A stretch of DNA of 58,594 nt, taken from contig WFXD01000104.1 of assembly GCA_015490795.1 (NCBI GenBank), positions 1-58,594 on the forward strand. Reading direction: 5' to 3'. This document shows, piece by piece, positions 21,206 through 47,541 of the stretch. The notes beneath the pieces were generated by a model. The model did no database searches. It was not told the origin of the DNA and worked only from the letters and a program-made list of their open reading frames with translations. The position numbers and the translations under genes are program-made. Source of the DNA: Gammaproteobacteria bacterium (GTDB lineage: Bacteria > Pseudomonadota > Gammaproteobacteria > Chromatiales > Chromatiaceae). Positions within the stretch are counted from its first letter, which is position 1. Each line of letters begins with the position of its first letter.

Positions 21206-22114
21206 CTAATCCAGCCCTGACAGGGCAGATAGATTATCGCTCAGCACAAAATCGTGGAAAGCCTGGGCTGCAGGAGAGAGCCGCTTACCGCGGGGATAGA
21301 CGATATGCCAGGTGCGCATGATGGGGAACTCCTCCACATCCAGTATCTGCAACCGTCCTGTCTCAACCTCAAGCTCAATGGTGTGTCTGGAGACGACAGC
21401 CAGCCCCATACCGGCACGAACCGCCTGTTTGATCGCCGTGTTCTGGCTCATAGCCATGCCTCTCTTGTAGCGTATCTTCCTGTCTTGAAAGAAGCGCTCC
21501 ATGGCCAGGCGTGTGCCGGAGCCAGGCTCACGTATCAGGAAGGTCTCTTTAGCCAGTTGTTGCAGTGGGATCTGCTGCTCTTTCGTCAATGGATGATCTG
21601 GCGGCGCAATAATAACAAGGGGATTATCCATAAAGGGGGTGGCCTCCAGATCCATCTTGGCCGGCGGCTGCCCCATCAGGATGATATCTCTTTCATTAGC
21701 CATCAACCTTTTTTTCAGCATCTCTCTATTGGTAACCTCAAGCGTGAGGTCAATATCGGGGTAGTGATGACTGAAGGCCGCCAGCAATTTGGGCGCAAAG
21801 TAGTTGATGGTACTGGCCACGGCAATATCAAGACGCCCACCGCTAAGCCCCTGCATGGCCTCCAGCACATCTTCCATCTCTTTGAGCTGCTGAAAGGCGG
21901 CATGGCTGTAATGTTGCACCTCCCTGCCCGCCTGGGTGAGGTGGATCTTTTTGCCAATCTGTTCAAATAGCGGCATACCGATGTGCCCCTCCAGCTGTTT
22001 AACCTGAATGGAGACCGCAGGCTGGCTGAGAAACAGCTCTTCAGCAGCGCGTGTATAGCTTGAGTGCTTGGCTACGGAGGTAAATACCTTCAGCTGCCGG
22101 AGGGTGAATTTCAC
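21206..22114 (-). CDS. LysR-family regulator, CbbR-like
   Basis: A 302-residue LysR regulator with an N-terminal helix-turn-helix (SYTRAAEELFLSQPAVSIQVKQ, about residues 18-39) and a periplasmic-binding-like effector domain. The opening MKFTLRQLKVFTSVAKHSSY and the GKKIHLTQAGREV segment are very close to what I know of CbbR/RbcR regulators of Calvin-cycle operons. No RuBisCO gene is adjacent, so the target may be elsewhere or may be the candidate small RNA transcribed divergently from the shared AT-rich region. It could also control another carbon-fixation or anion-uptake gene. Confidence 0.85.
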   Translation of the reverse strand: MKFTLRQLKVFTSVAKHSSYTRAAEELFLSQPAVSIQVKQLEGHIGMPLFEQIGKKIHLTQAGREVQHYSHAAFQQLKEMEDVLEAMQGLSGGRLDIAVASTINYFAPKLLAAFSHHYPDIDLTLEVTNREMLKKRLMANERDIILMGQPPAKMDLEATPFMDNPLVIIAPPDHPLTKEQQIPLQQLAKETFLIREPGSGTRLAMERFFQDRKIRYKRGMAMSQNTAIKQAVRAGMGLAVVSRHTIELEVETGRLQILDVEEFPIMRTWHIVYPRGKRLSPAAQAFHDFVLSDNLSALSGLD

Positions 22115-22213
22115 TTAATCAGCTCTATTCTGTTTAATGTATTAATGATTATATATGATAATTATTGATATATTTTAGTTTTATTTATATCAGTGTTTCG
22201 TTATATTACTTCC

Positions 22214-22332
22214 CGTGAACGCAAATAACGGATTGAACAAACCAGCTATTTGACGCTTCCCCCGCATGAAGTAATCCTCCTTAATTTACTTCAGCTTTTT
22301 TGGGACTCCACCCTCCGGAGTCCCTTTTTTTT
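22214..22332 (+). ncRNA. candidate small RNA with two anti-Shine-Dalgarno loops
   Basis: Two hairpins lie in tandem. The first (22267-22293) has an 8-bp stem TGAAGTAA/TTACTTCA and an 11-base loop containing CCTCC. The second (22302-22324) has stem GGGACTCC/GGAGTCCC and loop ACCCTCC, followed by eight T residues, a textbook intrinsic terminator on the plus strand. A -10-like TATATT at 22202-22207 suggests a start near 22214. No plus-strand protein gene ends here, so the terminator needs another explanation, and a small RNA is the simplest. The 5' end is a guess. It is transcribed away from the cbbR-like gene. Confidence 0.55.
22302..22332 (+). terminator. intrinsic terminator of the candidate small RNA
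   Basis: A perfect 8-bp GC-rich stem (22302-22309 with 22317-22324), a 7-base loop and a run of eight T bases. The T run is only on the plus strand, so it does not serve the minus-strand cbbR-like gene. Confidence 0.85.
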
Positions 22333-22669
22333 GCCCTGCTTCTGGCTTTTAGCAAGCCGTGCCGTCAGAGACCGCTATTCATCAGAGATCCCTTGCGACT
22401 TAGATAAAGCCCAGCCCAAAAATATAAGGTCAAAAATAGTAAGTAATCACAGATTGAATAGCAACGTTAATCTGCTTTTCCTTACTAAAGGCGAGCTGCC
22501 GGCCCCTAAAGAGATGCAGGTTATGCTATACTGCTCGGCTTTAAATATTCAGGTGGTGTAATCTTTAACACCATCTCCCATCGTAACTATCTCTCCACCT
22601 TGCATCAGTTACAGAGACCAACCCCCAAATGGGTTGCTTTGGGTCTTTCATCCAGGAGTTCATATCAGT

Positions 22670-47277: not shown

Positions 47278-47541
47278 ATGTCCAAAGGGCAAAGTTTACA
47301 AGACCCTTTCCTCAATGCTCTGCGTAAAGAGAAAGTACCTGTTTCAATTTTTTTAGTAAACGGAATCAAACTCCAGGGGCAGATTGAGTCATTTGACCAA
47401 TTTGTCGTTCTACTCAAAAACAGTGTGAGCCAGATGGTTTATAAACACGCTATCTCAACCGTTGTGCCGGTCAGAAACATCCGCTTTCAGCAGAATTCAG
47501 ATGGCGGGGATAGCCCTCCCCATGAGCCAGGCAATTTTTAG
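47278..47541 (+). CDS. hfq: RNA chaperone Hfq
   Basis: An 87-residue Sm-like protein that forms a hexameric ring and helps small RNAs pair with mRNAs. Sm1 ([20 protein letters not shown]) and Sm2 with the YKHA motif are complete. The opening [22 protein letters not shown] is canonical, and the C-terminal tail is short. AAGGAGA lies 7 bases before the ATG. It sits in the standard miaA-hfq-hflX order. Confidence 0.98.

Follow-up and report, generated by a model that had tools for sequence, protein, structure and literature searches.

A putative anti-Shine-Dalgarno small RNA divergent from cbbR, possibly transcribed from a former RuBisCO promoter

The gene divergent from the LysR-type regulator CbbR encodes RuBisCO in many relatives of the bacterium studied here, and this raises the question of what is expressed from that position in a genome where no RuBisCO was found. 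In the window (the whole stretch of 58594 bases that was analysed), the sequence and its predicted fold point to a three-hairpin RNA with a strong terminator at approximately 22214-22332 on the plus strand. The features of the locus are as follows.

21206-22114, minus strand: cbbR-like LysR gene, divergent from the RNA (synteny, tree and NCBIfam)
22175-22187, plus strand: TNA-N7-TNA element TTAGTTTTATTTA, the proposed CbbR activation site
22202-22207, plus strand: -10 box TATATT, 14 nt after the TNA-N7-TNA element
22217-22259, plus strand: hairpin 1, fast-changing, with 56-88% identity to the window in six relatives
22264-22295, plus strand: hairpin 2, with the loop UCCUCCUUAAU at 22275-22285
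22302-22332, plus strand: terminator hairpin (hairpin 3) and T run, with the loop ACCCUCC at 22310-22316

The initial annotation proposed a small RNA with a terminator and C-rich loops, and both sequence and fold agree: the 125-nt stretch has a minimum free energy of -31.9 kcal/mol (z -4.37), a value reached by none of 200 dinucleotide shuffles, and the terminator, GGGACTCCACCCTCCGGAGTCCC, is followed by eight T. The same stretch folds at z -5.36 to -9.80 in five relatives of the genus. Hairpins 2 and 3 contribute much of this stability. Taken by itself and compared with mononucleotide shuffles, hairpin 1 gave z 0.1 (window), -2.5 (L028), -5.4 (L029) and between -0.8 and -1.6 (the remaining four sequences), and is clearly above shuffles in stability only in L028 and L029. 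Five terminator-like sites were found between 20900 and 23000 against 2.1 in shuffles, the longest T run being that of the RNA's terminator. A mechanically called plus-strand ORF (22250-22561) overlaps the RNA site; two single-base gaps fall within it in L030. Comparison of the window with Rfam gave no family at its gathering score, nine related loci returned only tRNAs, and the alphaproteobacterial suhB/mmgR family (RF00519), whose cut-off is 41 bits, scored 19.1. The loop of hairpin 2 contains CCUCCUUA, which we take to be the 3' end of 16S rRNA, and the candidate RNA appears to carry what defines an anti-SD RNA, namely conserved hairpin loops complementary to Shine-Dalgarno sequences.

Comparison between genomes indicates that the RNA is conserved. 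By blastn it was found in all six genomes of the genus (the named records L028-L032 add no cases because they are the same genomes as G001-G005), and it also occurs in G017, which belongs to another genus and carries the same LysR gene in divergent orientation next to the RNA; of 55 genomes searched by blastn, 19 had some match at E <=1, the matches outside the genus being short with a best E of 0.04. A loss of loops and stems in close relatives would have counted against the initial annotation; hairpins 2-3 are retained in 6/6 genus genomes, with 95-98% identity to the window in the other five. The loop UCCUCCUUAAU is identical in five of the six and one base shorter in L030, and in G017 it reads TACTCCTCCGT. 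The terminator loop is C-rich throughout, with CCUCC in four of seven sequences and CCCCC in the other three; the claim that both loops expose CCUCC holds for hairpin 2 within the genus, bar one single-base gap, but for the terminator loop in 4/7 only.

Beyond the genus, a model of hairpins 2-3 gave a match at E <=1 in 25 of 194 family genomes, scoring 99-110 bits in the six genus genomes, 55.6 in G017, 41.1 in G135 and no more than 33 in the remainder, and an order-level search of 210 genomes returned the same top matches. A class-wide search, limited by strict filters and by 13 scored candidates per genome, gave matches at E <=0.001 in 6/369 genomes, own genome included; the matches L113-L117 were judged from their sequence to be chance, and only the window's own was accepted. 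G053 scored 36.8 bits, above some family matches taken as similar RNAs, in a stretch that is rich in AT and contains no CCUCC. No such RNA was seen by eye in the 600 bases upstream of the Beggiatoa-type LysR relatives L033-L037.

Covariation was considered in an alignment of seven sequences that was fitted to, and leans towards, the hairpin 2-3 model. Both partners have changed in three pairs of the terminator stem, all in G017, where one further pair is broken, and hairpin 2 has one one-sided change. The score was reached by one of 500 shuffles, but the number of further pair types (four) was not above shuffles, 500/500 being as high.

Given the terminator and the conserved hairpins, three other uses of the stretch have to be weighed. 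The first is a transcribed leftover, in which promoter and terminator were joined upon deletion of RuBisCO and the product has no function in trans. This would fit a locus where RuBisCO was not found and many relatives carry it beside this regulator, and yet hairpins 2-3 are 95-98% identical across a genus in which cbbR differs by 0.42-0.70 per synonymous site; a leftover is improbable. The second, in which the stretch serves the RhlE-type helicase gene downstream as its leader or attenuator, draws on the presence of that gene in five of six genus loci (the contig ends in the sixth), but it is very unlikely for two reasons: first, a strong terminator lies between the RNA and the helicase gene; second, the 2867-base locus of G017 retains the RNA and the LysR gene and gave no helicase match. 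The third supposes that the loop merely complements the SD of a small ORF on the minus strand, where TTAAGGAGGATTACTTCATG supplies a strong SD followed by ATG at 22265-22284, antisense to hairpin 2. The encoded peptide is 8 aa in L032 and has diverged in both L030 and L031, and in G017 ATA stands in place of the ATG; this ORF, the least credible of the three, was rejected since its coding sequence is not conserved.

The LysR gene bears on what would drive the RNA. The protein is named CbbR on the strength of RuBisCO synteny in relatives and of the tree; NF045990 (CbbR, NCBIfam) was the best of 55 families at 273.8 bits, a score under its curated cut-off of 450. The LysR proteins of the genus and of G017, whose divergent LysR is 77% identical, form one clade (support 98/92) among the others of the family, and because of this the seven RNA-bearing genomes are counted as probably reflecting one event. 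Comparison of coding sequences places cbbR under strong purifying selection, with dN/dS of 0.026-0.041 within the genus and 0.090 against G017, and LysR matches at E <=1e-60 occur in 168 of 194 family genomes. The divergent cbbR-like gene of the initial annotation is borne out by synteny and tree, and the RNA is preceded by an operator-like element.

RuBisCO is present in 18 of 20 family genomes searched for it, and by coordinates it shares a contig with the LysR match, in divergent orientation, in 12 of them, two of these on more distant LysR matches (G099, 47%; G065, 54% with one inner stop). The spacing between the LysR match and the matched RuBisCO domain is 573-741 bases in ten, and 1359 and 2174 in two. 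Among the other eight genomes, two have RuBisCO on a different contig, two are without it and four bear RuBisCO with no carried-over LysR place. A search of 24 LysR loci (L085-L108) for N-terminal motifs that we take to distinguish cbbM from cbbL gave 11 cbbM-like, one cbbM remnant (L086), seven cbbL-like and five of neither class: L085 (the RNA in G017), L091, L098, L107 and L093, the last with a visible cbbM start that runs off the contig. At L086/L143 (G015), the divergent neighbour of cbbR has a cbbM-like start and an apparently broken frame, and RuBisCO is on another contig. At L091 (G092), cbbR and the operator-like element are present with no RuBisCO start found adjoining, and here too RuBisCO is on another contig.

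RuBisCO was found in none of the six genus genomes and not in G017, against 170 of 194 in the family, and phosphoribulokinase in none of the seven RNA-bearing genomes, against 7/7 controls that were picked for having RuBisCO. The seven genomes are listed at 94-100% completeness; these absences rest on draft genomes, which can hide genes, as in G014, which was scored as without RuBisCO and yet has the start of cbbL next to cbbR where a contig ends.

The region in front of the RNA resembles that in front of RuBisCO. The published CbbR motif is TNA-N7-TNA (PMC2942843). The predicted RNA promoter carries this motif, which is short, weak and common in AT-rich DNA, upstream of its -10 box, as expected of a promoter in the CbbR regulon, and transcription would start near 22214. 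Element and TATATT recur at the same 14-nt spacing in 7/7 RNA loci. Among 14 relatives, chosen after the element had been seen, it was located in 13 (the script missed L090, where it is visible in the sequence), and TATAGT or TATATT follows at exactly 14 nt in 10 of the 13, the exceptions being L086, L087 and L091, in an alignment whose script anchors on the element. A second comparison took the LysR loci L086-L108 without choosing (L090 was not located): a 56-nt probe from the window beat all 500 dinucleotide shuffles in the LysR upstream regions of 11 of 22 relatives, one further relative had 1/500 shuffles as good, and ten were unremarkable, namely seven form I-linked loci, L098, L107 and the cbbM-linked L087 (50/500). 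By this sequence comparison, the RNA's promoter resembles the form II RuBisCO promoters of relatives.

It is conceivable that the anti-SD RNA is genuine and its promoter independent of CbbR, the operator serving only the expression of cbbR itself. The element, placed between two divergent starts, might act for cbbR only, the C-rich RNA candidates at tgt-queA (described below) have a TTGACA promoter, and loci L048, L050 and L051 gave no LysR match. Nevertheless, the element stands at a fixed 14 nt from the -10 box on the RNA side in all seven RNA loci, and a simple promoter scan, which left the -10 box at 22202-22207 unreported, assigned the RNA no promoter that includes a -35 box. Independence from CbbR is consequently rather unlikely, and activation of the RNA by CbbR is preferred.

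If the loop pairs with ribosome binding sites, matches would be expected before start codons. Perfect 10-nt matches before ATG in six genomes numbered six besides the RNA's own antisense, against one for a reversed control pattern; two of the six predicted sites open only 4 and 15 codons. The exact-pattern search returned 11 rows, five of them the RNA's own antisense, and found one gene in two genomes. Duplexes at <= -8 kcal/mol were predicted for 7 of 40 genes chosen from the window's ORFs, a list made without a control. Perfect target sites are few, which speaks against the suggested pairing with ribosome sites. Hfq is presumably encoded at 47278-47541 in the window, a name given from its N-terminus. 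Taken as a whole, the initial annotation appears partly supported.

An anti-SD mechanism has precedents, which are compared here from the accessible portions of the sources. AbcR1 of the Rhizobiales is an RNA with anti-SD motifs, including aSD1, CUCCUCCC, in a loop, and is activated by the adjacently encoded LysR regulator LsrB/VtlR (PMC8844928, PMC7486931); for Sinorhizobium meliloti these sources conflict, PMC7486931 giving no effect of lsrB in strain 1021, against the reporter data of PMC8844928 in Sm2011. AbcR1 differs in belonging to Alphaproteobacteria, in having another LysR regulator and tandem sibling RNAs, and in that no link to RuBisCO was seen in those portions. The Neisseria RNAs NmsRA and NmsRB share the three stem-loops and a UC-rich anti-SD sequence in the hairpin 2 loop and linker, but they are tandem siblings under RelA, with no LysR control seen in the text available (PMC5362039). 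The Xanthomonas RNA sX13 likewise has three hairpins, whose C-rich loops act on G-rich motifs near starts, whereas those loops are 4C/5C and its action is Hfq-independent (PMC3771888). Repeated anti-SD loops on diverged stems are described for the CCUCCUCCC-loop RNAs SmelA075 and SmelA099 of Rhizobiales, which differ in that CCUCCUCCC occurs in each of their three or four similar loops, a comparison made by description only (PMC3927594).

A second C-rich small RNA candidate was observed between tgt and queA in 6/6 genus genomes, five of which were covered by folding; the region has C-rich stretches, a terminator and a promoter with TTGACA.

L073-L078, approximately 1375-1500: tgt-queA RNA candidate, with queA on the minus strand

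Similar C-rich candidates were observed in four other genera of the family, at L048, L050 and L051 between genes that we take from their sequences to be tgt and queA, and at L049 near rplM. A literature search found nothing on an RNA between tgt and queA.

Given the conserved loops, the resemblance of the promoters and the failure to find RuBisCO and phosphoribulokinase, the explanation that we favour, with modest confidence, is that the product of the stretch is a small RNA of about 120 nt acting in trans, and that it would be activated by the divergently encoded CbbR from the operator-promoter employed in relatives for form II RuBisCO. The Calvin cycle would have been lost in this lineage, and the regulator and promoter retained and now driving the RNA. 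The exposed UCCUCCUU loop may then pair with Shine-Dalgarno sequences, aided by the C-rich terminator loop and linker, and this pairing would block translation of selected mRNAs. Among the titles listed in a search of the open-access literature, none was about a CbbR-controlled small RNA. It is put forward tentatively, as somewhat short of probable, that the lineage kept CbbR and the RuBisCO operator-promoter with an anti-SD RNA in RuBisCO's place, and that a switch for carbon fixation has become a post-transcriptional regulator. If so, the case would show how a regulator of metabolism survives the loss of its pathway through the gain of a small RNA as its output, and the signal to which CbbR responds would become testable in a cell without RuBisCO.
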